Positions 14,181-52,321 of a stretch of 64,000 nucleotides of DNA are shown here, piece after piece. The DNA is from Umbilicaria muhlenbergii. Taxonomy: Eukaryota > Ascomycota > Lecanoromycetes > Umbilicariales > Umbilicariaceae. The first letter of the stretch is position 1, and every line of letters begins with the position of its first letter. The position numbers were made by a program, and so were the translations under genes. The DNA lies in contig KK106981.1 in the NCBI GenBank assembly GCA_000611775.1, forward strand, positions 3,462,672 to 3,526,671, written 5' to 3'. A model generated the notes under the pieces. That model saw only the letters and a program-made list of their open reading frames with translations, had not been told where the DNA came from and did not search any database.

Positions 14181-16998
14181 TCACGATCCAGGAGCCTCTC
14201 CCTGCGGTGGCTCACCACTAGTTGTGATGACCTCAACCTGGGCTGCACACTTGTCCATCCCAAATTGCGACTTGCCTCCGACTTTCCCATTACTTGGATT
14301 CTGACACCCTTCGAAGATAGCTGATGCGTAGTCATCGATATCTTTCAGCGTTGCTTTACAGTCGTCTGTCCAGTCTTCTTGGTAGTAGATTGCTAGGGCG
14401 CAGGAGTTGACGTACTAGATAGAGCCGATCAGCATACACTCATCGCAAGAACACATAAGAATTAAGACTTACGCCGGCCCACCACGTCCCATCCTTCTTC
14501 CCCTGCAAGGGCCCCATCGTCGGCGCCACCCTCAACGATCCAAACGCATGAATACAATCCTGAATATCCGGCGACGCATCCGACGTCTCACACGTAACCC
14601 CCGTCTTAATATCCGGCCCATTATAACTGATCCCACTCTGACTCGGCTGCGTCAAATCCGGCGTCGGATCATCAAACGTCGCCTTAATTAGCGGCTGATA
14701 CCAGTCCGGATAATCATTCAGCGGATAAATGGAGTCATTATTTGGAGACCCAGGTCCATCATCGTGTTCTTCATCCAATGTGTCTAGAGATGGTGGCGCG
14801 CCAGGCTGCTTGCTGTCGCGGTCTTCGTTTGCTTCGCGGGATTTGGTCGGGTCCCAGACGGTGGGGTATTTGGGGTACTGCTTCCAGCGCTTCTCCATGA
14901 ATTTCGCCATGGCGTAGTAGGCGAAGTTGTCGTTGTTGCTGGATGCTTCTTCGACATTTCTCTGAGCTAGAAGCTTCGAGCGCCCGGTCTTATATGTCTT
15001 TACTAGCTTATTGCCGATGATCTGATAGTGGTCTATGCAGGCGTTCTTTCCGCTGCACTCCTGCGCGGTACCCCAATTTATATGGAGTAGCTCGTGCAAG
15101 AATGTGGTTGCTCTGCTACGCATGTTCGCAAGATTCTGCTGCAGATCTTTGTTCCCGTCGATTTTTGCAACGACGTCGCTGTGGGAGGAGAGTTTGGTGA
15201 AGAATTCGGGGCACAAGACTACGAGTGGGTAGCCGTAGTCGTGCTTTGAGCTGTAGAAGTATGCGGCGCTTTTGCCTTCGCATTCGTTTCCTTCGTCGAT
15301 GCAGCTTAGCTGGACGTAGCGGGCGTTCCACCAGTCGGAGAGACCCCACCCAGGGTAAGCATTCGCGGCTTTGAGCATAGCGTGGGAGTTTCTATTCTGC
15401 AGCCACGCTAGAATTTAATACCATACTAATAAGCCTGCCCCCTGCGTGGCAACCCCCCCCTTTGCATGTAAACAACGCGCTGACACGTCTGCAGACTTCT
15501 TAAACCCTTCCTCCTCGTCCTCCCCGTCCTCCTTAATGTCCCCGTCGCTCCCCTCGCCGTCGCCCCCTACGCCCCCTACGCCCCTTATAGCCCCCTATAG
15601 CCCCCCTATCGCCGCCGACACCCTCACACCATCCCCGGACATGATGTCTAGGCTATACACCGCCCCCCAAAACATTATAGAGGTCCGAGAACGTCTCTTT
15701 TCCGCCCGTGAGACTCAGGTGCTCACTGCCGCCGACTTAGAGGCATACTGGCCGCACGTCGAAAACGTCTGGTCGTCATCAAGGAAGGTCCGGACCTATC
15801 CTGACAAGAAGATGGCCTACTTCCGCTGTCAACAGCATAGGAAGAGGGACCATAGGCTGAAAGGAGAGGGAACAGGCCTTTGAAAGAGGCAGAAGCCCTC
15901 CTTTTCAGTCATTGATTGCTCAATGAAGATTCAGGTGGTCACTGAGGCGGAGAATTGAGGTAAGCCTACCCCCGATCTACAGTACACTACTAATGACTTA
16001 CAGGTTCAGGAGATCTGCGACTCCCTTCTTCAGCGCTACTACCGACAAGAAGAGGCAGCGGCAGAGCTCTCAGAGCAGGCAAGAGACTCACTTTTCATGA
16101 GGTGGATTACTCATTTGAGTAAAGTCACAGGTCTCATAAGGAAAATGAGGGTTTTGAAGGTTTTGAGGGGGCTTTCAGAGTTCCCCTGAGCGTGGGTGGA
16201 GGTCACAGACTCCCAGCTACACTTGAAGGGGACTACAGAGTCTCAACTGAATGAGCGGAGGCGTGAACGCGCTGGGGCAATGCCTGGGGAATGAGGCCGC
16301 GACGACGACAGTGAGCTGGAGGGGTAGGGGGGGCGGCGGGGAGCTTGAGGAGCAGTGAGGGCAAGGGGTGAACAGTGTTAAGAGGGGTGGCTGTATCTAC
16401 TTGCAATATATTCTATTTAATCAACTTCATTTTTTACCCTTCTAATTTTTAAAGTAGAATTACCGTATTTGGAAAAGTCAGGCTTGGAAAAGTCAGGCTT
16501 ATTAAGCTGTATGGTATTAAATTCTAGCGTGGCTGCAGAATAGAAACTCCCCATAGCGTCTATGCAGGAACGCGTTAGCGACGTGTAACATTATATCTCA
16601 GAAAGACTTGGGAGAAGCAGCAGCAGAGTATCGACAATTAGCGTCTTGAGCCGCTTTCCTGGGTGTGACTCACCGAAAATAAAGTGCTGATACGGCTGAT
16701 TTTGCGACTCCGGGCCAAAAAAGTCGATTGCAGCTTGCTTGGAAAAATCGACTTGTTGGTGCCCATAACTCGGGTAAGTGTTGACGACCTCATCATTCAC
16801 ATAGTCCAAGCCAGCAGAGGCGAGTGCCACCGCATCTTTGACATTTTGGTTGAGAATGTTGGTCTGGTCATCGGAGCAACCTGCGAATTTAAAGCTCGTA
16901 AGGATGGAGGCATCAGGGGCTGGAGGGTCGTCGGCTGGTGTTGGTGCAGCGATGACTGTTTTAGCGATCAGCGAGAGGAAGGAGAATAGAAGCAGCAT
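14181..16998 (-). CDS. Secreted HExxH metallopeptidase-like gene, interrupted by a DNA transposon
   Basis: Without the insertion the gene would encode about 489 residues in three exons: 16998-16674, then exon 2 from 16559 (first 8 bases) resuming at 15375 to 14473, then 14414-14181. Introns are 114 and 58 bases with GTGAGT...ATAG and GTAAGT...CTAG ends. Residues 1-18 form a signal peptide. The zinc motif HELLH is at about 205-209, and a downstream NNDNFAYYA segment is typical of fungal secreted aspzincin/M35-like putative peptidases. The expected role is extracellular proteolysis, and the substrate is unknown. A 1168-bp element (15384-16551) lies in exon 2, duplicating that exon's first 8 bases. 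Use of the original acceptor would read into the element and stop after about 45 codons. A TTCTAG acceptor inside the terminal repeat (exon start 15407) would instead keep the frame with a short insertion. So it is either a disrupted gene or one with a transposon-derived splice site. Family confidence is good; functional state is open. Confidence 0.8.
15384..16551 (+). mobile_element. hAT-like DNA transposon with perfect 43-bp TIRs
   Basis: The ends are a perfect 43-bp inverted repeat (15384-15426 and 16509-16551) starting GGGAGTTTCTATTCTGCAG. The flanks are exact 8-bp direct repeats CATAGCGT (15376-15383, 16552-16559). Similarity continues imperfectly inward (TAATAAGCCTG). An 8-bp target duplication suggests hAT, with Mutator-like or other 8-bp families possible, because the GGGAG terminus is not the commonest hAT end. 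A 16-bp direct repeat (GGAAAAGTCAGGCTT) lies inside the right end. The perfect terminal repeats and retained CpG indicate a recent insertion compared with the AT-rich fossils. The interior carries a split ORF, not a recognisable transposase, so it is probably non-autonomous. Confidence 0.9.
15536..16310 (+). pseudogene. Intron-bearing ORF carried by the DNA transposon
   Basis: From the first in-frame ATG (15536) an open frame runs to 15883 (115 residues). It starts with a Pro/Ser-rich stretch and then has a charged, aromatic segment (AADLEAYWPHVENVW, PDKKMAYFRCQQHRKRD). Coding-like sequence goes on beyond the stop. It is followed by a well-formed small intron, GTAAGC...CTAAT...TTACAG (15960-16003), and a further Gln/Glu-rich exon-like part to about 16300 (QRYYRQEEAAAELSEQ). 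TGA codons at positions where CGA or TGG would fit suggest mild decay. I do not recognise a transposase catalytic region. It may be a captured gene or an accessory transposon gene. Confidence 0.45.
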
Positions 16999-18760: not shown

Positions 18761-21700
18761 TCATAAGAAATGATATCAAAAGCTTCATAACTAAAAATAA
18801 AAGTGATACCTGCATCACTTCTGAAGCATGCAACCCACTTAAAGCATGAGGCATCAACACTTCAGGAGTTTGTCAATGGCAAAAACAACAACAGCAAGCT
18901 CAAGAAGATTGTACAGTGATCATATATTAAGTCCTTCATCATCTCAGTCATGAAGCTGGTGGAAAGAGTCCTGAATCAATCAGAAATCACTTAAATCACT
19001 GCAGATTTAAAGGCCTTAATTTAAAGGATGAATTCAGTGAAGAAAAATACTATAATAACAAAGAACCTGTTAAAGGCATCAGTTGACAGGAACTCAAATT
19101 CATCTGTTACAACAGAGTACTGAAACACACATCTTTAAGTGCAGGTGACTGCTCAGGTCATGCTTCCTCTGTCAACAGTCTTCTTTTCATCTACATTTGC
19201 AGCTCAGAGCACTTAAAGCACTTCAGTGAACCTGTCAACACCTGATGATCACAGAGTTATCATCAAGTTGAATCTCATCCTCATTAATCACTTCTGTACC
19301 CTTACACTCAGGGCTCTACATGACTGAATTGTTAATCACATCAATGTGTTCACAGACCTCAGCGTCACAGCTACTCAGATGACAGCAGTTAAACAGTTAA
19401 GGTTCAGAGACTTAATGATATACATTCATACAATCACAGAGAAAGGAACCCTGCAGGTCAACCTCAACTGAGTGAAGGCCTTCAGAGCATGCAAGGTCAT
19501 AATTATAACATACAGTGTCATTATTTATGAAGTCTCAGTAAACAGCATTCAGATAAATGATCAGAAGCAGATCATTGTCTGCATTTAAACTGAAAATCAC
19601 AAAATTGAAGCTGACAAAGACATTTTAATCAGTTATGTGAGATGATTATGCACCTCAAAACATGTCATCAGCTTCATGATGATGAAATTCACAGATGCAG
19701 AGCAGGTTAATGTGATGTTACAAACAGATTTAATCTGAGACTTAAAATACAAGAAAATAAAACTGTATGACAGAGCTTGCTGCATTCAGAAGTGTTTCAG
19801 ATGTCATAAGTTTAATCACATAAATGCTTAATGCAGTGAACAGCAGAAGTGTGAGTTATGTGCTGAAAATCATAAATCTGAGAAGTGCCTCTTCAAAGAC
19901 TTAAGAAAACAGAAGTGTGCAAGCTGTGAAAGCTCACATAAAGCTCATGACAACAAATGTTCAGAATTTCAGAAAGAAGTGACAAGAGTGCAGATAACAT
20001 GCAGTAATAAACAAATCTGCTGAAAGATGCTCAGTGCAGATGTTTAATCTTCACTTTTAATCTTTTTCATCACCTCAAATGCTTTCACATCACTCAACAT
20101 TTCACAGATGAATGCTGACATCTTCACTTTCATTAACATCATCAGTGTCAACAACCTCCTCTCTGCCTCATCAAAGGCTTCAGTGATTAAAGAACTTCAA
20201 AGAGTACCTGTTCTACTCATCTTAAAGTTGATATTAAATATAAATGAAAAGTGCTTTGCTTCTTCTGTAAAGATTGACAATAACTGCACCTCTTTAAACA
20301 TCATCAACAACAACAGAAGAGTTAAACACAACATCATTAAATTTCTGAAACAACAATTCATAAAGGCAGAGGTGAAGTGAAAAAAGAGTGAAAGAGAAGC
20401 AATCATGAACAGAACACATTCAAAGACCTTAAACATGAAGCAAAAAAACTTAATAATTGCAGACATTAAAGTTTTCACTCATACTGAATGTTAAAACACT
20501 TGAATTTAATCATCTTACAGCACAACAACATGAAATCATGTGACAAAGTCATGACTTTTATGCTTCAGGATCTGTGAACATGAGAATATAACATATTAAT
20601 AATTTAAAAGTCATGAAAGAATCTCTTTACTGTCAGCACTCATTATTCATGTAAAGATTAATTTCACCTGACATATTTCACAGTCATAAACTTGAAATTT
20701 AAGCCTGTCAGAGTGTGTTTCTTTGTGAACACATGACTGAACAGAGCACAGTGAACATTTAAGAAGCACTTAAAGAATTTAATCACTCTGAACTTGCACT
20801 ACCTGAAGCATAAATAGAGGAAACATCTTCACATTCACAACATTTACAGAGAGGCTGTCAGAGGAGATATCATAAAAACTTTAAATCAATTGAATAACTT
20901 GTTTAATGAAAACTCAGATGAACAGCATCTGATGATGAAAGACTTCAATTTACATCATTTCACCTGAGGAGAGGTGAGGATTGAAGGAGACAGAAAGATG
21001 AATTAATTATTAATCATCATAAATGAGAGGCAATTATCTCTTCTACTTTCTTAAAACTTTATTACCTGAAGAGTTGATGAATCACAGAGCATAATTAATC
21101 TCATGTTGAACACATCCTCTGTGACACAGAGGCTGATGAGCTGCAGTGTCATGAAGAAGAATTATGACTTAAATCACTTCTCAATACTGACAACACTGTT
21201 ACTGAAAGTGCTGAAGGCCACATCAATAATGTGCAGGCAATGAGACAGAATGAATAAAGAAGTCTTCAGAAGAGTTTTAATTGCTTAACTCCTCAACTCC
21301 TCATCAAGATCAATGAAACTGAAGCAGATGAAGTAACAAATTAAGAACATTATAAAGATTTTACAGCATGTTATTCAAGAGACAGTTCCTTTAACATGCT
21401 CAAGCAAATGATCAAAACCTGAATTTAAATCAGAGGTGAAGAAGATCATATGAAAAGTCAACAGAACTTAAAGAAGATAACAGAGAAAATAAACAGTAAA
21501 ATTATAAAAGATTTACAAGAAGGCTGTTAATGAGAAAGAAAAAAAACTCATTAAATTAATGAAGAACACACACTGAGAAAGAGTTAAGAAAACCTCAGCA
21601 GACTTAAAAGATTTTTAAAAGCTGATAAAGTGAGTAAAGAACAAAAAAGCAGAGAGTTAAACTTTCACATCAACATTATAATAACAGGATGAAAGTGCAG

Positions 21701-24362
21701 TCACAGAATTAAAAAATAAGATAAAGTTTTTATGAGCTGCTTTTTTTTTAACACTCTTGAAGGCTGACCTCAGGGACATGAAGAATTATGAGTATTTAAA
21801 ATCTTTACAAATGCTGTTAATTATGAAACAGGAACTCAAGAATGTTATATTATAAACTTTAAGTAATAAAACTTTCAGATTAAATAACATTTTATATGAT
21901 GTTTTACATCTTTTCCTTCATCAGATTCTCTCATTACTTTTATTATTATATAATCAGTGCCTGAGGAGTGACACTCATTTGAAAGTTTTTAAACACTTCA
22001 TCACAGTGACTCTTCAGAAGTTAAATAAAGAAGATTATAAGATGATGAAGACTTATAAATCAGTAACACTTTTGAACACTCTGAAGAAAGTCATGAAGTC
22101 TGTGATGATTAAAAGATTAAATTAAATGACAGAGATTTATAATCTCCTGTCAAGAACATTATTAAATGAATGAAAGAAGATTTCAATAAAGCATGCAGTT
22201 CACACACTCATGAAGATCATTCAAGAGGCATGAAATTTAAACACATCAGTGATATCACTTCTTATGCTTGATGTCTCAGAGGCTTTTAATAATGTGTCTC
22301 ATCAAAGACTTTTACACAATTTAAGAAAAAGAAGAATTTTTTTAAACATGATTAACTGAATAAAAAGCTTTCTAAAGGACTGAACCTCAACATTTAAACT
22401 TTCAGAATATGAATCAGAGCAGTTCAGCATATATATAAACATCTTTTAAAGCTCATCTTTTTCATTTATTTTTTACTTCTTCTACAATGTAAACCTGTTA
22501 AATATTGAGAACAGGGAGGATTTACAGGCAGCAGCAGTGAGTTGAATTAATGATGTGAAATTTGCAGTGACAGAAGTCACAGCAGAAGTTAACTGTTAAA
22601 CATTCTAAATGCTACACATGAAGGCAGAGGTTTAAGTACATAAACATGCATTAATATTCACCTTCATTAAATATGAACTCATTCACTTTATGAACAAGTC
22701 AAGTGAACATGACATCTTTACAGAGTTGACTCTGAGAATCAGCAGCATCTCTTCATTTAAGACATGTCAAGTGCTGAAAGTCATCCTGAACTCACAACTG
22801 AATTTTGAGACTCACATTTGACATATTAAAGCAAAGGCAACAATGAGCTTAAAAGGACTGACAGTCATTACAGACTTTATGTGAGACTTCAATCTCAGGA
22901 ATCTGCAGAGATTATACATTGTAATGATCCTCCCTCAGATCACATACTGCTGCTCAGCATGACACATTACAGATCAGGCTCATGAAACAGTTATATGATG
23001 ATAACATATCATTCAGAAGCTCATCATCATTCAATGACATGCAGAGGCAATTATAATGAGAGTTTTTCATATAACAGCAGGCTCTGCTCTGAATATAAAG
23101 CTTTTTCTGCTTTTTATGAAACAACAATTAAAGAAAGCTGCAGGAGATGTTATAATCTGCATATTCATCTCTTTCATACATCAAAAGCTTATGAAAGACT
23201 GAAGATTCAAATGAAGAAAGATGCAGAAGCTCTGAAGTCTCATAAAGTGAACAACAAGACAAGAGATGACAGACAGTTGAATACTTAATAATAAGTTGAA
23301 AATCAGACACTCATATGTGATCTCATCATGATGAATCTCATCAATCACACACATCATCACCTTCATTGAGACTGTCATTCATACACATGACATCAATGCT
23401 TTATGCAGAGATGACAGGGTGCTGAACATCTTCATAGATGAAAACATCATCAGAGATCATGTGAAAGCAGCAGCAGTAACATTTAAATTAAAAGAGGAGA
23501 AACTGTGTTACATGAATATAAAAAAAGTGATGACAGTCTTTAAGACTGAGCTGCAGAGCATAATCATGATCACTATTATGACAATGACAATAAAAGAGAC
23601 ACAGATTCAGAACATGTGAGCAGTGAATATTTATGTGAATAATCAAGCAGTTATTCAGGTCACAGTTAATTCAAAAAGACAGTTAAGACAATATCTGCTG
23701 AGAGATGTCATTCAAGACATCAACAAACTACAAAAGACTGAAATTTAAATGAAGATTCATTGAATCTCAGCACACTCAGAGGTTTCAGAGAATAAGAAGA
23801 CAGACAGAACAGTTAAAACAGCAGCTCAGAGATTTAAAATTTATTTAAGAGAAATCTTCTACATGCTGTTAATCTGCAAGCAGAGTCTCTGAAAGTGAGT
23901 CATCAAGTAATGAGTGAATGAGTGAGAGAATGAGAATACAGAGAGAACAGTTTTTTATTTAAAGAAAAAGCTTAATTTAAGAGTTCTGATAAAGCATACA
24001 AGAGTACAACATCCTCTGAGCTCACTAATCATGCAGCTTTGAACAGAGAAGATCACCTTAACACATTATTTTCACAAGATTCAAAGGAAAGACTTCTTTA
24101 AATGCTCATACTTACAAGGTATTCAGACAGTTCATCACATACTAACAGAATGCCTGAGGAACCAGGACCTTCAGAAGAAGTTATTAAGATGAGTTCATGA
24201 TGTCTGAAGAATTCTTAAAGACTCAGCATTAATTAAAGCAGCTGTTGTTTTAATATTATGAGACAACCTCCTGAGGCAGTTTCAGGATGTAAGAGAGGTT
24301 TCAGAAGACTTACAAGCTTAAGAAAGCCTCTGAAAGATCTTAAAATAAATAATTTTAAGACT
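18761..24362 (+). mobile_element. Tad-like LINE (non-LTR retrotransposon), degraded
   Basis: The domains appear in the order expected for the fungal Tad clade of LINEs. An ORF1-like part has two zinc knuckles at about 19790-19960 (CFRCHKFNHINA, CELCAENHKSEKC, then CASC...HKAHDNKC). An endonuclease-like part lies at about 20480-21280, a reverse transcriptase at about 22030-23000, and an RNase H at about 23390-23890. A C-terminal region with HHILTECLRNQ (a Cys/His motif) is at about 24120-24260. All frames are split by many stops, most of them TGA, and CpG is essentially absent. The open pieces 22995-23288 and 23419-23619 belong to the RT tail and RNase H. The 3' end is hidden because the Gypsy element at 24368 follows immediately after GCAAA. 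Confidence 0.85.
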
Positions 24363-24367
24363 GCAAA

Positions 24368-24668
24368 TGTAAAAGACAGGTTACAATAAGTATGACAGAA
24401 TTAACATCATAATCATTATATAATTATAAAATGAGGTATCTAAGCAATATAATCATGTATGAAAGTAATAAATAATAAGTCTTTTATTTGATGAGGAAAC
24501 TGATTATTAAGAAAGCAGATTTTTAACTCTTCTTGTGAAGAGTTTTCACTTGATGTCAAGGTGCTACTCATTAAGTCATTATATAAGTGAGTTATAATGA
24601 TGTACTGTCATACTGTCATACTGTCATACTGTCATACTGTTATACTATTATATATGATGACTCTGACA
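24368..24668 (-). repeat. 3' LTR of the nest-host Gypsy element
   Basis: It starts TGTAAAAGACAGG and ends CTCTGACA, and pairs with 52322-52614. It contains runs of a TGTCATAC word. It is more AT-rich than its partner, which keeps several CpG sites. Confidence 0.85.
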
Positions 24669-25856
24669 CAGCATTCCCCTTCTCATGACATCATCTTCAG
24701 TGTCAATTGATTTCAAATTCATCACCATAGACATCATCATGATAATATGATAAGTGATTGATCATGTAAAGTGAGTGTGTGAAACTGCATTAAGCTCTTG
24801 CTGTAAATCACTTATAAGATCTTGATAAAACCTGTAAAACTTCTTGAGGAAAATCAGGAAAAAGTGTTCTTATGATATTAATTAAGTCCTGTTCAAGCTG
24901 TTTAAATTGTTCAGCATGTTCAGAACTGTTTAAATGTAAGTCTGTCTTTCTTACTCCTCTTTCATTTTTGTTTAGTATGACAAAATGTCATAGTAATTAT
25001 CATACTTTTGTCATACTCATGTTTATTCATTGTATTAATATATTCATCAAGACTTGCTTCTTGAGTATGTAAGTTTCAGACTGCTGATGTTTCAGCTCAC
25101 TTGTAGTGTCTCTCATAAGAAGTAACATAAGTGTCATAACTTCTGTTGTATTCTTGTCATAAGGAACAGGCTCTGTCATAAAAGATCAAGTTAACAAAGC
25201 TGACAAAGTTTTCAATTCTTAAGACTCATGACTTTTACAACAGCTTCTCAATTAATTTTAAAGAGTCATGCTGTACAGCTCACCTGAATTTCAGTTTATC
25301 AGAGTTGTCAGCATGAAATTTTTACATTTTTGCCTTTACATTATGAATGAAGTGTGTTGACTTTCATGTGTTGTCTCACACTTGATCTGTCAGCTTTCAT
25401 TTAACAAGGTATTGAAGCCTGCTGTTATGAATACAGTTATTCATAATTACTTCAACTTCTCACTCATCATCTTGATTGAGTAGTAGGTCTTTTCCTGTTA
25501 ATGCAGAGGACACATGACATGTGCCTTAAAATGACTTCAATAAAATGATGTTGAACATGTTATAAATATTTCAATCCTCTGAGAGGTTGAGTTCATATGA
25601 GGATTGACTTATCACATGTTATATTTTAAATGAGCTGAGTTTTTTTCAATGCAGTTTCTTCATCTGCTTGTTCATTGATACATTCTTTTCATTAATCAGT
25701 ATTAAATCACCTTCTTTGAATGTTATCTTCATTCAGTGCTGATTGTAGTAATTTGTATACATCTTATTAACTTGTTGTAGCTGCTTTTAAGTTGTTGCAA
25801 TTTGATCTTGAAGTCACTGTGCATCTGCATAAAGTCTTATTTGTTCATGTGAATGC

Positions 25857-26137
25857 TGTCAGGTTTACACCTGAACTGAATGATTTAAACTTGAATGTTG
25901 AATTGAACTGAATGATCTGAATGATCTGAATGATATCAAATTGAATGACTGAACAGGTTAACATCAAATGACTGAATGAGTTAACAGTGATTAAATTAAT
26001 GAGCTTAATGTGCACATAAAAACTTTAATCTTTATGCTTTCTCTTCCTTTTGCTCCTTAAACTAGAATTCTTCTTTGTAGTTAAATGTCAGCCTGTTAAA
26101 ACACATGCATTAATTCTTAATCTGTATAATTTTAACA
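25857..26137 (+). repeat. 5' LTR of Gypsy A copy 2
   Basis: It starts TGTCAGGTTTACAC and ends TTTTAACA, and aligns with 31592-31863. Confidence 0.85.
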
Positions 26138-29100
26138 TTATTTTAGTCTTTCTCTTTATCTCCTGTCATGAGGCACCCTGAATAAATTCTGAATCAGATT
26201 GAAATTGAATCAGAATCAGAATCAGAATCAGAACTCAATCATGATGATTAAAGAAATTAATAATAAAGTTTATTCATGAATCAGAAAGTCTCTGTTGACT
26301 TCAGTGAATGATGAACAATTCACTTTGAATAAAAACCTGATCAATCAGATCTTGACAGCTTTGATTGCAGAGACTTTAATTAATTTTTTACAAGAACATT
26401 CCTCTGAAGTAATGACTGCTCTTTAATAAGTGATCATCAATCATGAGCAGTCTTTGAATGAAATCAACATCATTATAAAGGCTCATGAAGAAATACAAGC
26501 AGACTATGAATAAATGAAGGATAAGAATAAGAAACTGAAGAAAAAAGTTGCTGAATAAACTGATGTGATAACATATCTTAAATAAAAAATCACAGTCACA
26601 AGAACCTCCTGACTTGATTTTCCTCAACTCACAGTTGAAAAATCATTCAAATTATTAAAGCTTCTTGATTCACTGATGTTCTTCAGTGACTGTTCAAAAT
26701 ATGATGAATGAGTAATGAAGATTAAGAACTATTTATTAACAATGAATGAATAATATCTCACTGAATAGATGAAGATAACATACATGAAAACAAAAGTTGA
26801 AGGTGACTCTGTTAAACACATAAGGTCTCAAATGAATTCAGCATCCTGAACAGCTTATTTAAATGTTATTAAACTGCTAAAACATTTGACCTGAATTTAC
26901 AGAGACTCAGATTGAAAATGTATCATCACTGATGAATTTCATAAACTTTATTAAGAATTTAAAGACTTCTCATTCTTCTGAGTTAATTTTCAGTGATATA
27001 TTACTGAACTGAATGAGTTTTTTAATTTATACTGAATAAGAGAACTTCTGAACAAGGTGAACAGCATCATTTAATAATAATTAAACACTGACAACAACAG
27101 ACCTGAAGATCTTTATGAACTCATCAAGTGCTGTCAGTGAATCAATCAGACCTTATGACTGCTTGATGCAAAGAAGATCATTAAATTAAATCAGATGACC
27201 CTCTTCACAAGTCAAACTCATACAAGGACTGAATGTTTTATTGAGACCTTAAAATCAATTATCTGAATGATCACTGAGTCTGTTCCTCAAACACTAAACT
27301 GAACATCACACTCAGACGCCGCCAAAGAACAACAGATGAAGAAAGAATGTTATTTTAAATATAATGAACAAAAGCACCTTGCCTTAAACTATTCAAACAA
27401 AAAGAAAGAGACTTCAGCATTAAGATGCATGCAACAAATCATATCTGATTCTGATTCTGATTTTGAATTAAATTCAGGAAAAGGCGTTCCTCTATCAAAG
27501 TCATAATAAGAAATGATGATAATCCTCTTGTGATATCAGTGCTGATGATTAATGAAGACATGCTGTTCACTTGAACATCATTCAAAGTGAATTGCAAGCT
27601 CACATTGAATGAAGTTAAGTTATGAGTCAAGGCTCTACTCAATACTGAGTCAAGGCTCTACTCAATACTGAGTCAACTGAATATACATTTATCAATGTTA
27701 ACCTGGCAAAGACTCTGATTGAATGATTTAAAATTAAAGCAGTATCACTGTCAAAGCTCTGAACCCTACATGATTTTCAGAAGAAGACAGTGAGATGAGT
27801 TATATACACAATTTATTTAATTATGAAGGTTTGCAATCATTCTCAGTGACTCACCCTCATGATGATTGTAGACATAAAAGATCTCAACATTATACTGAGA
27901 CTCTCTTGAATGAATCACACCTGAATTTTAATCAACCCTGTGAACCGGGTAGTGATTTTCTCACTGAATGAATGAACTGAATGAAAACTGAATGAATGAA
28001 CTAAACTGAAACTGAATGAATGAATCAAACAACTGAACAACTGAATGAATGAATGAACTGAGCTGAAGGAACAAATGAAACTGAATGAATAAATGAACTG
28101 AATGATTGAATCTGAATCACTGAAAATTAAATTCATCTTAAAGGCAGATCCTGAACCAGCCTCACATGCAGTTAATATCAAGATGATTGACACAACATTG
28201 TTCACATTAAATATGAAGGAAGATAATGAAATCTTTGTTATCTTTATTTAACAGATTGAGGAAGCATTGAATCTTGAACTGAAATTAAGTGAATTAAATA
28301 TCAAGGTGATTCTCTCTTCTAAATATCATGACCTGATTGATGTCTTTTTTAAAAAGACTGCAAATGAACTTCCTCTGCACTGACTTTATGATCATAAGAT
28401 CATTTTAAAAGATGAGCAAAAACTCAGATATACACCTCTCTACAATATGTCACATGAGGAACTGATAATGATAAAGAACTACATAAAAGACAACTTATTA
28501 AAAAGTTTCATTGAAGTCAGTCAGTCATCAGTGACCTCACTGATTCTGTTTATATGAAAGAAAGACAGGTCTTTATGATTATGCATCAACTACTGAAAGT
28601 TGAATTTGATCATGAAGAAAGACTGATACTCATTGCCTTTAATTGAGAAAGCCTTGACTCAGATTTTAAAAACAAAATACTTCATCAAGATCAATATACA
28701 ACAGGTATTTCACTGTATATAAATGAATCCTGAATCTGAAGACCTGATAATCTTTTAAATGAGGCATGATTCTTATAAATATAAGGTCTTGCCTTTCAGA
28801 CTCATCAACAAATCAGTCACCTTTCAGCACTTTATTAATGATGTATTATTCAATCTATTGAACACCTGTTGTACAACATATTTAAATGATATCTTGATCT
28901 ATTTAAAGTTCTTATCTGAATATTAAACTCATGTCTGAACTGTTCTAGAATGACTGAGAAAAGCAAACTTACAAGCTGAAATCAAGAAGTGCAAATTTCA
29001 CAAGACTGAAATTCATCTAGAATGACTGAGAAAAGCAAACTTACAAGCTGAAATCAAGAAGTGCAAATTTCACAAGACTGAAATTCAATACTTAAAACTG

Positions 29101-31591
29101 ATCATTAAATGTCATGACATTCAAGTAGACCCTGAAAAGATCATGATTATAAAGACTTAAAAAGTGCTCATTAATTTAAAACAGCTGCAGGCATTTTTAA
29201 ATTTTTGTAACTTCTACTGATGATTCATAAAGGGATATTTCAAAATCACAAAGCCTTTAATCAGACTGACAGGCAAGAACATACTCTTTAATATGTAAAT
29301 TGAACAGTGTCTTCAAGCATTTAATAAATTAAAGAACTGACTGATTAACATGTTAATATTACAACATTTTAACTGAACTTGAACATGTTATCTTGAATGC
29401 AACTCATCTGATTTAATATTCACAGGAGTACTATCTCAGAAAGATGATTAAAGATTAATGCATTCAGTGACATTTTTCTTTAAGAAACTCATACCAGCTG
29501 AATGTAATTATGAGATTTATGACAAAAAATTGTTGATCATCATTTAAAGTTTAAAGGAATGATGCACTGAATTAACAGAAACAGAGGATCTGATTTAAAT
29601 CTTAACAGATTATAAAGTCCTGAAGTACTTTATGATGATCAAGAAACTGACTCACAGACAAGTCAGATGAGCTGAATTTTTCTCATAATTCAACTTTATA
29701 ATCATCTACTGAACAGGCAAGGAAAATGAAAAGGCAGATACACTCATTAAACACTCAAGTGATTAATTAAAAAAGAATGAGAATGATGAGCATTTATGAT
29801 ATTAATCTTAAATCATGCTACTGAGCTGCTGCTTAAACTCATGCATCATTGTTGAACAAAAAGAAAAAGCTTCTCATTTTTTAAAATCAGCTGAACAGAT
29901 CTTGAATGAATCAAATGAACAAATTCTGAATGAATCAGTTTTAAACAAATCAATCCTGAATGAATCAGTCCTGAACAAATCAGCTGAACAGGCTCTGAAT
30001 GAAATGTTAAATGAGTTGATTACTTGATATGTGAAAGCAGATGATTTCTGTCAGGAAATTCTAAGCTTATTACAGACTGAGGCAAGACATTCAACAAAAA
30101 TCTTTCTCAGTGATTGCACTGAGGACACAGGCTGACTGCTTTATCAAGAACATGTATGAGTCTCAGGCATTAATAATGATCTGAATCAGAATGAATTATG
30201 ATGATGATTGATTCAAGAAGCTCATGAACAGCTGATGATAAAACATATTAAACACTGAAAGACTCTGAAACTGCTTGCACGCTTCTACTACTGACTCTGA
30301 ATGAATTGAACAGTCAGTCATTTTGTTCAGAATTGCCACATCTGCCGCTGAACAAAGAACATGAATGAGCAGTATCAAGGAGCTCTGAAATCACTCTTAA
30401 TTTTAAATCACTCATGACAAGATATTTCACTCAACTTGATTATCAGGTTACTTGAAAATAAAGGGTTCAACATAATCCTGACAGTCATTTGCAGACTGAT
30501 CAAGAAGAGACATTATATCTCTTATTTAATAAATAAGAATGAGAGAACATCAGCTGAATATATTATTAAACTCTTGCTTCAAAATGTATGAAGATTTCAT
30601 GAATTATCACAGACAATTACATCAGACTGAGGATCACAATTTGTAACATTACTCTGAAAATACTTATATGAATGACTTCAAATCAGACTGAAACCTTCAA
30701 TCACTTTTCACTCTGAGACAGACAGGCAGTCTGAAAATGTAAATGTGAATATTGAATGTTACCTTAAAGCATTCATGAACTATCAGCAAGATGACTAAAC
30801 TAAATGACTGTTAATAATTAAGTTCACAGTCAATAATGCAGATTCTGACTTCATTAAAGTTTCATCATTCTTTGCAAATAAGAAATATCACCTCTGAATG
30901 AGCTTCAACCTTGAATGATTGATCACTTCACTGCTGACAAGAGAACAAATTCTGAAGGAAAAAGTTAATTTTATAATGAATCATATGAAAGCTTTACATT
31001 TGATGTTACAGGAGAACATGACAGCAGCATAACTTCAACAGAAAGACTTTATGAACTGAATTTAAACATTAACCTCAACATATCAAGTGAGAGACCTGAT
31101 ATGATTGTTGATAAAAAACATTTAAATGACTCACTTGTTCAAAAAGTTGAATCACAAGAATGAAGGACCTTTTTGAATTAAAAAGAAAATATCAGCTCAA
31201 GCATATAAATTTGAACTGCTTAAATCAATGAAAATACACTCTGTATTTCACACCTTCTTACTTCAACTCACTGTGAATGATTTTTTGTTTAAATAAATTA
31301 AGTCACCTCTGCCACCTGTAATAACTGAACAGGCTGAACTGAAATGAGAAGTTGAACAAATTGATGACAGCTGTTGATGAAGGAATAAACTACAGTACAG
31401 AGTGACATGAAAAGAATATTCACCTGACAAGACCTGATACAACACAGATGAATTCAAACACTCACTTAAACTGAAAGAGGTGTTTCATAAAAGGTACTCA
31501 AATAAGTCAGCTGAGTCACTGAATACATCAATGATGAAGCAGAAAAGTAAATGATCAGCTCATGAAGCTCATTAAACAGAGAGAGAAGTAA

Positions 31592-31863
31592 TGTTAAGTT
31601 TACATCTGAACTGAATGATCTGAATCTGAATGTTGAACTGAACTGAATGATCTGAATGATACTGAATTGAATGACTGAACAGGTTAGCATTGAATGACTG
31701 AATGAGTTAACAGTGATTAAACTAATGAGCTTAATATGCATATAAAGACTTTAATCTTCATGCTTTCTCTTCCTTTTGCTCCTTAGACTAGAATTCTTCT
31801 CTGTAGTTAAATGTTAACCTGTTAAAACACATGCATTAATCCTTAATCTGCATAGTTCTGATA
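31592..31863 (+). repeat. 3' LTR of Gypsy A copy 2
   Basis: It starts TGTTAAGTTTACATC and ends TTCTGATA, followed by the AATGC target repeat. Confidence 0.85.
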
Positions 31864-32255
31864 AATGCTGTATAAGCAGCTTACTTAAACTCATCTGAGG
31901 GTTTTACTTTAAGTTAAGCTGAAAGGGGCTCTTTCTCATAACAGCATGTATGAAGTTGTTATATGAGAACTCAGTGCAGGATAAAAGCTTCACTCAGTTC
32001 TCTTACTGCTTATCAATAAATATGTGTAAATATATCTTCAGAGACTGATTCTGCCTCTCTGTTTGATCATCAGTTTGCAGGTGAAAAGCTGTTGACATGT
32101 TATGACAACATCACATGTGAAAACAGAAGCTGATTCACTGCTTTGATGTAAACAGCTTGTCTCTGTCTGTGATTAAAACTTTTGACATATCATGATGCTT
32201 AATTATGTCCTGAATAAACACCTCAATGAAGTCAGCAACTGACATTGTCTTTTGT

Positions 32256-43150: not shown

Positions 43151-45186
43151 ATCATATCATGTCTCTGCATTTAGTAACTTTCTACTGTAGTACACAACTG
43201 ATAAGCAATGAAATTGCTCATTGACCTCAAAGCGCTGAGTTAATATTTCATCAATGATGAATGCAGAGGTGTTCATTTCAACTTGCATAAACTTATTCTC
43301 ATCAAAATAATGTAATAAAAAAGCACTCATGAAGGTTTCCTTTAAAGCCTTGAACACTTTCATTACAGCTTTTGAAAGTGAAAATGAAGGGAATACAATA
43401 TTTATGATATTCATTTATCATAATTGTTGTGATTTTAGTGATACCTCAGCCTTCTTTTTATTTTTTCCTGTTTTCAGAAGTTTCATAAGAGGTGCTGTGA
43501 TTCATGAATAATTCTTAATAAACCTCTGAAAGAAGTTAACAAAGCTTAAAAAGACTTACAATTAATGAACATTCTCTGAAGATAATCATTCCTCAACAGT
43601 GTGTATCCTCTCAGAGTTCATGAATATGCCTTCAGTGTTGATTTTAAAGTCAAGAAAGTTAACCTCTGAGGTGTTAAATGAGCACTTATTAATCTTAAGG
43701 TGAAGATCATGACCTCAGAGTGCAGTAAGAACTTATTGTACATGCTCTTCATGCTTAAACTCATTTTTACTGAAAATCAGGATGTCATCTAGATAAATCA
43801 TGCAGATGATGTCAAGAAACTCATTAAACACCTTGTTCATGAAAGCTTGAAACATAACAGGAGCATTAATAAAGCTTAAAAGCATAATGAGATATTTAAA
43901 CAACTTGAATCATGTTCAGAATGCAGTCTTTCATTCATCATTATTTTTAATGTGTATTCAATTATATGTATTCTTGCAGTTTAGCTTTATAAATCTTCTT
44001 GCTCTCTGAAGATGATCAAGCATGTCTGATATCAATGACAGTGAATAACAGTTTTTGATGATGATGTCATTGAGGCACTTATAATCAATGATCAGTCATA
44101 AGCTTTCATTTGATTTGAGTATAAACATAACAGGTGATGCTGCAGATGATATTAATTTATGAATAATGCCTGCTTCAACAGTGTTATCAAGGTACATCTT
44201 TAGTGTGTTGAACTTAACTGAAGACATTAAGTATAACTTCTTAAATGAGAGTTGCTGCCCTGATTTTAAGTCAATGATGTAATCATGAAGATCTTTTTTT
44301 AATAAAGATTATGTCTTCATCACCTGAAAGATATTTATGAAGTCATGATACTCAAGTGATAAAGTGTCATAAACATTGTTGTACTTTTTATCATAATGTA
44401 TGAAATTCATTTGCAGAGCTTTCATATCAGTCATTAAATCTGCCAGGCTTATGAAGTGTTTCATAATGAAAAGGTTGCTCAGGTGTAAAACACTTTATAA
44501 TGTCTTTCTTTCATTAATAATGAACATCTGTTGTGTTTTAATATGTTTTCTTTTTCTTCATAAGAATCTTCTGATTTCATAATCATGATTGAAGTTTGCA
44601 TTGACTAAAAATGATAATCTGAGGACAAAGAGTGCTGATGTGTCATTTAAACTGACATAAAAGTGATGCTTATAATGATAAAGCTGATCATCACTGTCAT
44701 ATGTGATAATCAACAGTATGATGAACTTTGATAAGTTTACTACATTGCCTCATGTGTTACCTCAAGCTTCATATCACTCTGTATGTAGAGACAGCTCATC
44801 AATGATGTTTCATGTGATTATATTGTCTTGACTGTCATTATTAATGATATATTAATAAGTTGATCTATGAGTCAGCTCACCTCTTATTATAATTAAAAGA
44901 TTCACCTTTAACTGCTCTGTTATCAGTGATGACATCTCATCAGTGATAAATAATAAAGCAAGCTGAAGGTTGACTGTGAATCATTAATCAGTGTTAACTG
45001 CAGTAGTGACTGCTGTTGATCATCTTATTTAACACTCATTAATTCAGTGACCTGTGACTTCACACTTAATGCAGAGGTTTGCAACTTTTCATGCAGTTAT
45101 TTCATCTGTCAGTATGTGATCCTCTTTCTTACATGACTTCATGACTTTGTAAGTGATTGTCATCATGATTTTCTCAGCAATCAGAA

Positions 45187-45425
45187 TGTCAGGACTATGC
45201 AGATTATGAATTAATGCATGTGTTTTAACAAGCTGACATTTAGCTACAGAAGAGAATTCTAGTCTAAGGAGCAAAAAGAAGAAAAAGCATGAAGATTAAA
45301 GTCTTTATGTGCACATTAAGCTCACTAGTTTAATCACCGCTAACTCATTCAGTCATTCAGTTCAGTGTCATTCAGATTGATGTTCAGTTCAACATTCAGT
45401 TTAATGTTTAAGTGTAAACCTGACA
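45187..45425 (-). repeat. 3' LTR of Gypsy A copy 3
   Basis: It starts TGTCAGGACTATGC and ends AACCTGACA, preceded by the target repeat CAGAA. Confidence 0.83.
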
Positions 45426-48400
45426 CTACCCCTCTTCTTTATTTAATGAGCTTCATGAGCTGATCATCTGCTTTTCTGCCTTGTCATTGATGTTGATGAC
45501 TCAGTTAACTTATTTAAGTACCTTTCATGAAACACCTTTTTCAGTTCAGGTGAGTGTTTAAATCCTTCAGCATTATATCAGGTCTTGTCAGGTGAATATT
45601 CTTTTCATGTTACTTTATACTGTAATTTATTTCTTCATCAATGACTGTCATTAATTTGTTTAACTTCTCATTCTGGTTCAGCCTGTTCAGTTATCACAGG
45701 TGATGAAGGTGACTCAATTTATTCAAGTAAAGAATCATTCACAGTGAGTTGTAGTAAAAAGATGTGAAAGACAGAGTGTATCTTCATTGACTCTGACAGT
45801 TCAAGTTCATATACTTAAGTTGAGATTTTCTTCTTGATTCAAAAAGGTCCTTCATTCTTGTGATTCAGCTTTTTGAACAAGTGAGTCATTTAAATGTTTT
45901 TTATTAACAATCATATCAGGTCTCTCACTTGATATGCTGAGGTTAATATTTAAGTTCAGTTTATGAAATCCTCTTGTTGAAGTTGTGCTGCTGTCATGTT
46001 TTCTTGCAACATCACATGTAAAACTTTCATATGATTTATTATAAAATCAGCTTTTTCCTTCAGAATTCATTCTCTTGTTGATGAAGGTGAGGTGATCAAC
46101 TGTTTAAGATTAAAGCTCATTCAGAGGTGATATTCTTTATTCACAAAGAATGATGAAACTTTGATGAAGTCAAAATCTGCATTGTTGGCTGTAAACTTAA
46201 TCATTGATAATCATTTAGTTCAGTCATCTTGCTGATAGTTCATGAATGCTTTAAGGTAACATTTAACATTTGCATTCACATTTTCAGACTGCCTGTCTGT
46301 CTCAGGGTAAAAAGTGATTGAAGGTTTCAATTTAATTTGAAGTCATTCACATAAGTATTTTCAGAGTAATGCTACAAATTATGATCCTCAGTCTGATGTA
46401 ATCATCTGTGATAATTCATGAAATCTTCATACATTATGAAGCAAGAGTTTAATAATGTATTCAGCTGATGTTCCTCCTTCTTTATTCATTGAGTAAGAGA
46501 TATAATGTCTTTCCTTAATCAACCTGCAAATGACTGTCAGGATGATGTTGAATCCTTCACTTTTAAATAACTTGATAATCAAATTGAGTGAAATATCTTG
46601 TCATGAATGACTTAAAATTGAAAGTGATTTCAGGGTTCCTTAATACTGCTCATTCATGTTCTTTGTTCAGCGGCAGATGTGGCAATTTTGAACAAAATGA
46701 TGAATCATTCAGTTCATTCAGGATCAGTAGTAGGAGCGTGTAAGCAGTTTCAGAGTCTTTCAGTGTTTAATATGTTCTGCAACTGATTGTTCATGTGCTT
46801 CTTAAATCAGTCAGAGTTGTAGCTCATTCTTATTTGAATCATTATGAACTTCTGAGACTCATACCTGTTCCTGATACAGTAATCAATCATTTGCATCTTC
46901 AGTACAGTCACTGAGAGAGATTTTGATGAAATGTCTCACTTCAGTCTGTAGTAAGTTTATGACTTCCTGACAGAAATCATCTGCTTTCATGTAACAAGTA
47001 ATCAACTCATCTAAAGTTTTATTCAGAGCTTGTTCAGTTGATTCATTCAGAGTTGATTCATTCAGAACATCATTCAAATTATTATTTAAATCATTCAGAG
47101 CCTGTTCAATTAATTTTAAAAGCTGAGGAGCTTTTTCCTTTTGATTAATGATAATGTGTGAGTTTAAGCAGCAGCTCAGTAGCATGATTTAAGATTAATA
47201 TCATAATCACTCATCATTCTCATTCTTCTTTAGTTGATCACTTGAGTGTTTAATGAGTGCATTCACTTTTTCATTTTCCTTGCCTGTTTGATAGGTGATC
47301 ACAAAGTTGAATTATGAGAGAAATTCAACTCATCTGACTTATCTGCAAGTCAGTTTCTTAATTATCATAAAGTACTTCAGGACCTTATAATCAGTTAAAA
47401 TTTAAATTGAATTCTTCATTCCTGTTAATTCAGCGCATCATTCTTTTAAACTTTAAATAATAGTCAACAATTCCTTGTCATAGATTTCATAATTACATTC
47501 AGCTGATATGAGTTTCTTAAAGAAAAATGTCACTGAATGCATTAATCTTTAATCATCTTTCTGAGATAATACTCCTGTGGATATCAAATCAGATGAGTCA
47601 CATTCAAGATAACATGTTCAAGTTCAGTTGAAGTGTTGTAATACTGACATGTTAATCAGTTAATTCTTTAGTTCATTAAAGGCTTAAAGACACTGTTCAG
47701 TTTACATATTAAAGAGTATGTTCTTGCCTGTCAGTCTGATTAAAGGTTTTGTGATTTTGAAATATCCCTTTATGAATCATCAGTAGAAGTTACAAAAACT
47801 TAAAAATGCTTATAACTGTTTTAAATTAATGAGCACTTCTCAAGTCTTTATAATCATGATCTTTTCAGGATTTACTTAGATGTCATGACATCTTATGATC
47901 AGTTTTAAGTATTGAGTTTCAGTCTTGTGAAATTCACACTTCTTGATTTCAGCCTGTAAGTTTGTCTTTCTCAGTCATTCTAAAATGATTCAGACATGAG
48001 TTTAATGTTCAGATAAAAACTCTGAATAAATCAGGATATCATTCAAATATGTTATACAGCAGGTGTTCAATAGATTGAATAATACATCATTAATAAAGTG
48101 CTGAAAGGTGACTGATTCATTGATGAGTCTGAAAGGCAAGATCTTATATTTGTAAGAATCATGCTTCATTCAAAAAGTTATCAAGTCTTCAGATTCAGGA
48201 TTCATTTGTATATGATGAAATGCCTGTTGTATATTAATCTTGATGAAGTATTTTGCTTTTAAAATCTGAGTCAAGGTTTCCTCAATTAAAGGCAATGAGT
48301 ATCAGTCTTTCTTCATGATTGAATTCAACTTTCAGTAGTTGATGCATAATCATAAAGACTTGTCTTTCTTTTATATAAACAGAATCAATGAGGCTACTGA

Positions 48401-50889
48401 TGATTAACTGACTTCAATGAAACTTTTTTATAAGTTGTCTTTTATGTAGTTCTTCACTGCTACCAGTTCCTCATGTGACATATTGTAGAGAGGTATGTAT
48501 TTAAGTTTTTATTCACTTTTTAAGATGATCTTGTGATCATAGAGTTGATGTGAAGGGAGTTCATTTGCAGCCTTTTTAAAAAAGACATCAATCAGGTCAT
48601 GATATTTGAAAGAAAGAATCATCTTGATATTTAATTCACTTAATTTTAATTTAAAGTTCAATGCTTTCTTGATCTGTTGAATAAAGATAACAAAGATTTC
48701 ATTGCCTTCCTTCATATTTAATGTGAATGATGCTGCACTGATCATCTTGATATTGACTGCATGTGAGGGGTTATTACTTTTTAATGTGAAGACTGATTCA
48801 GGATCTGCTTTTGCAATGAATTTCTTCAAGATCTGATAAGTTTTCAGCAGTTCAGGTTCAATCATTTGATTCATTCATTCATTCAGTGTTCAGTTCTTCA
48901 GTGTCATTTGTTCATTCAGTTTGATTCATTTGTTTGATTTCATTCAGTTTCATTTCATTCAGTTTCATTTCATTCAGTTTCATTTCATTCAGTTTCATTT
49001 CATTCAGTTTCATTTCATTCAGTTTTATTTCATTCAGTGAGAAAACCACTACCTGGTTCACAGAGTTGATTAGAATTCAGATGTGATTCATTCACAGAAG
49101 TCTTAATATAATGCTGAAATCTTTCATGTTTACAATCATCATGAGGGTGAGTCACTGAGAATGATCACAGATCTTCATGATTGAATAAATTATGTATATA
49201 ACTCATCTCACTGTCTTCTTCTGAAAATCATGTAAAGTTCAGAGCTTTGACAATAATACTGCTTTAATTTCAGATCATTCAATCAGAGTCTTTGTCAGGT
49301 TAGCATTAATGAATGCATATTCAATTAACTCAGTATCAAGTAGAGCCTTGACTTGTAACTTAACCTCATTCAGAGTGAGCTTGCAATTCACTTCAAATGA
49401 TGTTTAAGTGAACAGCATGTCCTCACTGATCATCAGCACTGATATCATCAGAGGATTATCATCATTCCTTATCATGATTTTAATAAAAGAACGCCTTTTC
49501 CTGAATCTGATTCAAAATCAAAATCAGAATTAAATATGATTTATTGCATACATCTTGATGCTGAAGTCTCTTTCTTTTTTAAACAGTTTAAGGCAAGGTG
49601 TTTTTATTCATTGCATTTGAAACATCATTCTTTTTTCATTTATTGTTCTTTGATGACATCTGAGTGTGACGTTCAGTTCATTCATTCAGTTCAGGAAACT
49701 GACTCAGTGATTATTCAAATAATCAATTTTAAGATTTTAATGAAATGTTCAGTCCTTGTATGAGTTTGACTTGTGAAGAAGAGTGTTTGATTTAATTAAG
49801 GTTTAATGATCTTCTTTGCATCAAGCAGTCATAAGGTCTGATTGATTCACTGACAGCATTTAATGAGTTCATAAAGATTTTCAGATCTGTCATCATTAAT
49901 GTTTAATTATCATTGAATAATGTTGTTCACCTTGTTCAGAAGTTCTCCTATTCAGTATGAATTAAGAAACTCATTCAATTCAGTAATATATTACTGAAAA
50001 TCAGCTCAGAAGGACGGGAAGTCTTTGAATTCTTAATAAAGTTTTCAGAATTCATCAGTGATGATACATTTTTAATTTGAGTCTCTGTAAATTCAAGTTA
50101 AATGTTTTAACAGTTCATTAACATTTAAATAAGCTGTTCAAGATGCTGAATTCATTTGAAGTTTTATGTATTTAACAGAGTCATCCTCAACTCTTGTTTT
50201 CATGTATGTTATTTTCATCTGCTTAATGAGGTATTGTTCATTCATTGTTAATAAATAATTTCTGATCTTTGCTACTCATTCATCATATTTTAAATGATTA
50301 TTGAAGAACATTAATGAATCAGGAAGCTTTGATAATCTGAAGTTAAATAATTCTTCAACTGTGAGTTGAGGAGAATCAGGTCAGAGGGTGTTTATAAAAG
50401 TGACTGTGATTCTTCATTTAAAGTATGTTATTACATCAGCTTGTTCAGCAACTTTTTTCTTCAGTTTTTTATTCTTATTCTTCATTTCTTCATAATCTGC
50501 TTGAAGTTCTTCTTGTGCCTTTATAATGATGTCAATTTCACTCAAAGACTGCTCATGATTGATGATTAATTATTAAAGAGTAATTATTACTTTAAAGAAA
50601 TGTTCCTGTAAGAGATTAATTAAAGTCTCTGCAGTTGAAGCTGTCAGAATCTGATTGATCAGGTTTTCATTCAAGGTGAAGAATTATTCATTAATCACAG
50701 AGATTAATAAAGACTCTTTAATTCATGAGTAAATTATATTACTGATCTTTTTAATCATCATGATTAATTTTTAATTTTTAATTCTGATTTTAATTCTGAT
50801 TCTGATTATGATTCTGATTTGATTTCAATTCAATTCAGAATTCATTCAGGATGCTTCATGATAAAAGATAAAAGAAGAGATTAAAATAA

Positions 50890-51101
50890 TGTCAAGATTA
50901 TACAAATTATGAATTAATGCATGTGTTTTAATGAGCTGACATTTAGCTACAGAAGAGAATTCTAGTTTAAGAAGCAAAAAGAAGAAAGAGCATGAAGATT
51001 AAAATCTTTATATACATATTAAGCTCATTAATTTAATCACTGTTAACTCATTCAGTCATTCAGTTCAATATTCAGTTCAACATTCAAGCATAAACCTGAC
51101 A
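50890..51101 (-). repeat. 5' LTR of Gypsy A copy 3
   Basis: It starts TGTCAAGATTATAC and ends AACCTGACA. It is about 27 bases shorter than its partner. Confidence 0.83.
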
Positions 51102-52321
51102 CAGAAGATGATTTGAGTTAATACTTTTTAATTGATCATGCTTGCCTTCTCAGTGAGATCCTCCCTTGTCATGACTGAAAGATTAATCATGAAGTGTGAG
51201 GTCTTCAGTGATAATTTTAATCTTGTCATAATCTCAGCTCTTGTCATAATATGATGTATGTATTATAGTTTTTTCAGAATTATCTGTTGCATATTGATGC
51301 TTCTTTTTGCCTTCAGTGCAGCTTCAGAATGATTCATTATTAATGATAATATCAAGCTGCACTGAGATTTCACTCACTGACTGTGTCATCATTTGCTTTT
51401 AATCTTAACATTGTAGTTCTGTCAAGACATGATGAGGAAGCCTTGATCTTTAATGATTTTAAATGAGTATTTCACTGATCTCTTTATGTGTATCTGATAA
51501 GAAGCAGTATAAGTCTGACAGCCTGTCATGTTAAAATGTAATAATGTTATTACTGCATGATTCAGCTGTGTTGAAGATAATGATGTTTCACTCATTAATG
51601 TCTTCATCTGATGATAAATTCTTCTCAAGTACCTTAAGATAACTTTTATAAGTTATTTAAGCAGAGTCATGCTGTTTCTTTTTTTTGCATCAATCACTTA
51701 ATGTGATCTTCTTTAAAAAGGTGACTGATCAGAGGATAAAGTTCAACTCAGTAAAAAACTGCTTCAGCATTATCTTTCTATTTTAATTAATTTCATTTAA
51801 ATAGTCTTGCAGCTTTTATCTGTCACATTTAATGTTACCTGCATACAGGTGAGGTGATCATGACTTGATGAAATGATGAAAAGAGGGTGAAGTGATATCT
51901 GTTGTAATTTAACATCATACTTCAAGATTAAGGTCTGTGTCTCCTGAATTCATCATAATCTGAGACTCTTGTTGTAGGTGTAAGTTGAGTTCATTGAGCT
52001 TTTTTTAATTGTTGTCATATTCAACCTCTTGTTAAGCACGTCAGATTTGTGCTCTCTGAAGCTCAAGAGCTCACTGATTATGAACAGTAGTCACGTCAAC
52101 ATCTTTTATGTTGTCATTAAGGCGGTCTGTATCAATGTTATCATCATTGATGTTGTTATCAGAGGGGGTATTGACTGCTGACAGTGTAAACCTGCTCATT
52201 GACGGGCCTGCTGTGACTTGATTATCAACTGCTTCGCTGACCTGATGAGATCAAAGTGTTGACGTCATCATGCTATTGCTCCGACGTGGCTGTTCGCCCG
52301 GTGGGTGCAGAACGATCAGTA

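Follow-up and report, generated by a model that had tools for sequence, protein, structure and literature searches.

The window, that is, the whole 64,000-nucleotide stretch of Umbilicaria muhlenbergii DNA analyzed here, comes from a genome of 34.8 Mb in 7 contigs and carries on its minus strand a gene that likely encodes a secreted-type, M35-like peptidase and that is interrupted by a DNA transposon. In the order in which the gene is read, with a slash marking the splice point, the features are as follows:

16998-16674, minus strand: exon 1, 325 nt, phase 1, 108 codons plus one base
16673-16560, minus strand: native intron 1, 114 nt, intact, donor G/GTGAGT, acceptor CATAG
16552-16559: target-site duplication CATAGCGT, the copy adjoining the native acceptor
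15384-16551: DNA transposon, 1168 bp, with 43-bp perfect terminal inverted repeats
15376-15383: target-site duplication CATAGCGT, the copy adjoining the rest of exon 2
14473-15375, minus strand: rest of exon 2, an open frame with an HELLH motif and a weak Aspzincin_M35 match
14472-14415, minus strand: intron 2, 58 nt, donor GTAAGT, with a CTGAT branch motif 15 nt from the acceptor

The N-terminus of exon 1, judged by eye, resembles a signal peptide, and the exon has no Pfam match. The rest of exon 2 matches Aspzincin_M35 (PF14521) with E=2.1e-4, scoring 22.2 bits against a curated cut-off of 30. One other gene, at 33.9 bits, was listed by a six-frame genome search with this profile, and the element-bearing one was not. 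A stretch of 52 residues at the HEXXH motif aligns with the other aspzincin gene (L057) at E=8e-4, and the exon 2 piece used as a genome query matched only itself. Given this subthreshold score, the omission from the genome search, the short alignment and the self-only match, the peptidase label is likely but not firm. Searches of the PDB with the peptidase returned no match at E up to 1, and L057 itself had only weak matches there, the best being neutral protease II (E=0.16); the structure of the exon 2 piece predicted without an alignment had a mean pLDDT of 35. A BLASTP match between exon 1 and L057 (E=2e-4) was set aside: exon 1 pairs with the region around and beyond the HEXXH motif of L057, and a local alignment of the exon 1, exon 2 and L057 pieces agrees with this picture. 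That match is not collinear with the one between exon 2 and L057 and does not test the junction of the two exons.

The transposon sits 8 bases into exon 2, the first base of which is 16559. Its ends begin with GGGAG, and its 145-aa open reading frame matches nothing in Pfam at E up to 1; the element is apparently nonautonomous. Two full-length relatives were found, at C1:7443059 and C6:326573 (contig and position), along with a partial copy on C7 (bases 1-620), a diverged full-length one near 850 kb on the same contig and a fragment on C3. The 8-bp duplications at the four complete copies are CATAGCGT, CGCCGTTG, CCTGCATA and GAATAACC. The copy in the window lacks 15 bases near its plus-strand left end that are present in all four other close copies covering that end. 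Of 10 open frames beside five other copies, hand-chosen from a longer list and compared with Pfam at E up to 0.01, nine matched nothing and the tenth matched DUF433 over a short stretch.

The 8-bp duplication suggests that this may be a hAT element. The genome contains 13 hAT-dimerization matches, of which 11 have internal stops and two, in loci L010 and L012, do not. The ends of the element, with up to five substitutions allowed, were absent from the eight hAT-transposase loci searched among these 13 matches (about 1.5 kb on either side), and neither the 145-aa frame nor a same-ended relative at those 8 of 13 loci connects the element to a hAT transposase. hAT elements have short inverted repeats with usual terminal bases. 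With the fungal nonautonomous, hAT-like transposons that make 8-bp duplications, the element shares these duplications, the inverted ends and the lack of detected coding capacity, but it differs from them in the length and perfection of its 43-bp ends, in their GGGAG start and in their absence from the hAT loci searched.

One further copy is split. Its bases 1-965 are separated by 58.5 kb from its bases 1024-1168 on C1 (C1:1243001-1249000 and C1:1302001-1308000), both halves being flanked by the duplication TCCCGCCG, and a 63-base piece corresponding to bases 964-1026 lies near the end of C4, at 4555083 (C4:4550001-4557415). By eye, the right-hand junction on C1 and the piece on C4 adjoin similar sequence that resembles the terminus of a different repeat, pointing to a nested insertion and a later rearrangement. 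From about 1303001, C1 contains up to 2 kb in which the G+C content is 0.00-0.17 per kb; these bases are probably N, and the split copy might therefore reflect an assembly join.

The window also holds AT-rich blocks, at 20000-32000 and 44000-52000, which, like loci L046-L049, have a CpG observed/expected ratio of 0.00-0.10, an excess of TpG and CpA, and low TpA (0.57-0.62). Repeat-induced point mutation usually follows a CpA pattern; the decay in these blocks is aimed at CpG, unlike that usual pattern.

Returning to the peptidase gene, the branch motif of native intron 1 is CTAAC; its A, at 16575, precedes the 3' splice site by 16 nt, with no AG in between. Because this intron is intact and strong, the transcript likely loses it and enters the element, which would yield the following exon:

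16417-16559, minus strand: exon 2 after native splicing, entering the element and ending at TAA 16419-16417

The stop, like the element, its duplication and the reading frames, is read directly from the DNA. Once the transposon had landed in exon 2, removal of native intron 1 would leave a transcript running on into the element, where translation would continue for 47 residues past the junction before ending at 16419-16417. The predicted product has 155 residues and lacks the HELLH metal site, and nonsense-mediated decay might act on the resulting message. Splicing most likely follows the native signals, and the gene is most likely inactive. We therefore consider it highly probable that the gene is disrupted, with native splicing leading into the stop within the element and the terminal repeat offering at best a rarely used cryptic acceptor. 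Against disruption, neither exon 1 nor the remainder of exon 2 contains a stop, as would be expected if the gene were still in use, but equally if the insertion were recent.

The sequence-only reading had instead proposed that the terminal repeat supplies an acceptor that restores the peptidase frame. The sites involved in this and in a related route are the following:

16458-16463, minus strand: alternative donor ACG/GTAATT within the element, giving a 1056-nt intron to 15407, in frame
15408-15409, minus strand: proposed acceptor AG, ATTAAATTCTAG/CGTGG, in the terminal repeat
15384-15407, minus strand: 24 element bases that would be exonic if the proposed acceptor were used

As far as the frame is concerned, that proposal holds. 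The element is located at the start of exon 2, the terminal-repeat AG gives an exon start at 15407, and the donor G/GTGAGT opens an intron at 16673, all as proposed. The 24 element bases and the 8 bases of the target copy keep the phase without a stop, and the frame stays open through exon 2. The expected gain of AWLQNRNSH in place of one residue agrees with the junction AWLQNRNSH-AMLK obtained for a two-intron model that uses the same acceptor and phase. Two neighboring sites had been dismissed, correctly: CTGCAG (exon start 15396) is out of frame and reaches a stop after 1 residue, and AATAG (exon start 15391) is out of frame with a stop after 28 residues. Among the 11 AG sites examined, only that for 15407 is in frame and open, and the whole insert has one such acceptor; the in-frame open stretch begins at 15414.

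An acceptor of this kind is nevertheless frequent by chance, and the in-frame AG is explained by chance, with about 4 in 10 random inserts having one. Of 5000 dinucleotide-shuffled versions of the insert, 42.7% had at least one open in-frame YAG (a repeat run gave 2118 of 5000), as did 36.4% of 20000 fragments of genomic sequence drawn from 12 loci, seven of them mainly AT-rich, and 4762 of 10000 GC-rich fragments from 5 loci. When any AG was counted, the proportions rose to 65.6% of shuffles and 59.0% of genomic fragments. The 24-base element end is stop-free in two of its three phases, and the insert in the reverse orientation gives the same in-frame outcome because the element ends are inverted repeats. 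An open in-frame YAG accompanied by YTRAY within 60 nt occurred in 798 of 5000 shuffles and in 2164 of 10000 fragments, a combination that the real element lacks.

The branch point of the proposed intron had been called weak; the signal is indeed poor, but this wording understates the case, since no YTRAY branch motif was found within 250 nt upstream of the proposed acceptor. The 15 bases missing from the window copy would sit 19 nt upstream of the proposed junction, and no YTRAY lies within 60 nt of the acceptor with or without them. In the sequence fetched from this genome, 4504 of 10172 YAG sites have YTRAY within 60 nt and 5668 of 10172 do not, so a random AG without the motif is nothing unusual. 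For another fungus, Trichoderma longibrachiatum, PMC4324775 reports a median intron of 72 bp. A branch motif of the form CURAY, UURAY or YURAY could be placed in 14642 of its 14678 introns, and in 14394 of those the branch point lay no more than 60 bp from the acceptor. In addition, AGs that lie 18, 27 and 34 nt upstream of the proposed site (exon starts 15425, 15434 and 15441) lead to stops, and these three would be met first from any more distant branch point.

The length of the proposed intron, 1266 nt, also counts against it, being about four times the longest of 26 estimates for this genome, which range from 46 to 307 nt with a median of 61.5. These estimates are the distances separating exons that match two Pfam families, actin and kinase, a method that could miss very long introns, and the 26 pairs were chosen by eye among 159 match rows, most pairs in the same open frame being omitted. 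In five of the 26 retained pairs, both matches lie in a single open frame, and these gaps may instead be insertions; dropping the five leaves 21 pairs with a median of 61 and an unchanged maximum of 307. One omitted actin-family pair (C1:7557650-7557976 and 7559433-7559810) lies 1456 bases apart with 156 profile positions missing, which leaves about 990 bases unassigned, possibly a protein insertion, missed exons or a long intron. According to PMC2397502, fungal splicing is inferred to proceed mainly by intron definition. A genome-specific splice model trained on the fetched loci was too noisy and was dropped except for intron 2 of the peptidase gene.

In the predicted RNA fold of the insert, a prediction made without shuffled controls, the two ends pair, the first 43 pairs being unbroken, and the proposed acceptor AG is paired with 16526-16527 in the terminal-repeat stem. 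A read-through transcript would, according to this model, form a terminal-repeat stem opening with 43 unbroken pairs, and such a stem is a possible source of small RNAs against the element family.

In favor of splicing from 16673 to 15407 stand the preserved, stop-free frame and the identity of the acceptor-containing inner repeat across copies: the inner 19 bases of the terminal repeat were found at 9 ends with 0 mismatches in a pattern search that allowed up to 2, and the diverged C7 copy has ATATTAG at the position of the acceptor AG. The native acceptor, however, is upstream and strong, and together with the missing branch motif, the preceding AGs, the intron length, the pairing of the AG and the chance fit, this makes the 1266-nt route very unlikely. 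Thus, of the proposed rescue, the existence of a frame-restoring AG stands, but its role as an acceptor is unsupported.

A second route, which the sequence-only reading had not raised, would leave native intron 1 unaffected: after its removal, the donor at 16463 within the element would be joined to the acceptor at 15407, adding about 40 residues in frame and without stops. The donor sequence is present in all four close copies covering that end, the window copy included. By eye, though, it is not a strong consensus, and the route would share the paired acceptor and the missing branch motif and require a 1056-nt intron, which makes us regard it as extremely improbable. Three further donor and exon-start pairs are in frame (16547 to 15407, 16437 to 15396 and 16425 to 15396); their donors look poorer by eye, and they too would need terminal-repeat AGs and introns over 1 kb. 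Alternatively, a 5'-truncated transcript arising in or near the element could start at ATG 15378, which opens the remaining exon 2 frame, and would encode an unsecreted HELLH protein devoid of the signal-peptide-like exon; we give this possibility only a slim chance. Disruption of the gene, with native splicing into the stop, remains our preferred interpretation.

A more general conjecture is that a conserved 3' splice site faces outward from the inverted ends whichever way the element is oriented, allowing insertions to be removed or bypassed as introns (16673 or 16463 to 15407); the terminal stem would draw the two ends of the intron toward each other. We hold this to be exceedingly doubtful; if it were true, the element would be partly self-masking in genes.

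Terminal sequences of the plant Ac/Ds (hAT) transposons supply cryptic splice sites when these elements are inserted in genes, and the splicing has been seen in transcripts. The Ac/Ds insertions and the element in the window are alike in that a DNA transposon lies in a host exon and a splice site in its terminal repeat could partly remove the insert. In contrast to Ac/Ds, for which spliced transcripts have been seen, the case of the window element consists of the in-frame AG alone, without a branch motif. A literature search returned no paper combining a hAT transposon, a splice acceptor, a terminal inverted repeat and a fungus.

As it stands, the locus represents an ordinary gene disruption, in which the in-frame AG is of a kind that about 4 in 10 inserts would carry by chance. 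If the acceptor were used, this would be a fungal transposon whose own terminal repeat removes it from messages, and the locus would test whether kilobase introns lacking a branch motif can be handled by fungal spliceosomes at all.
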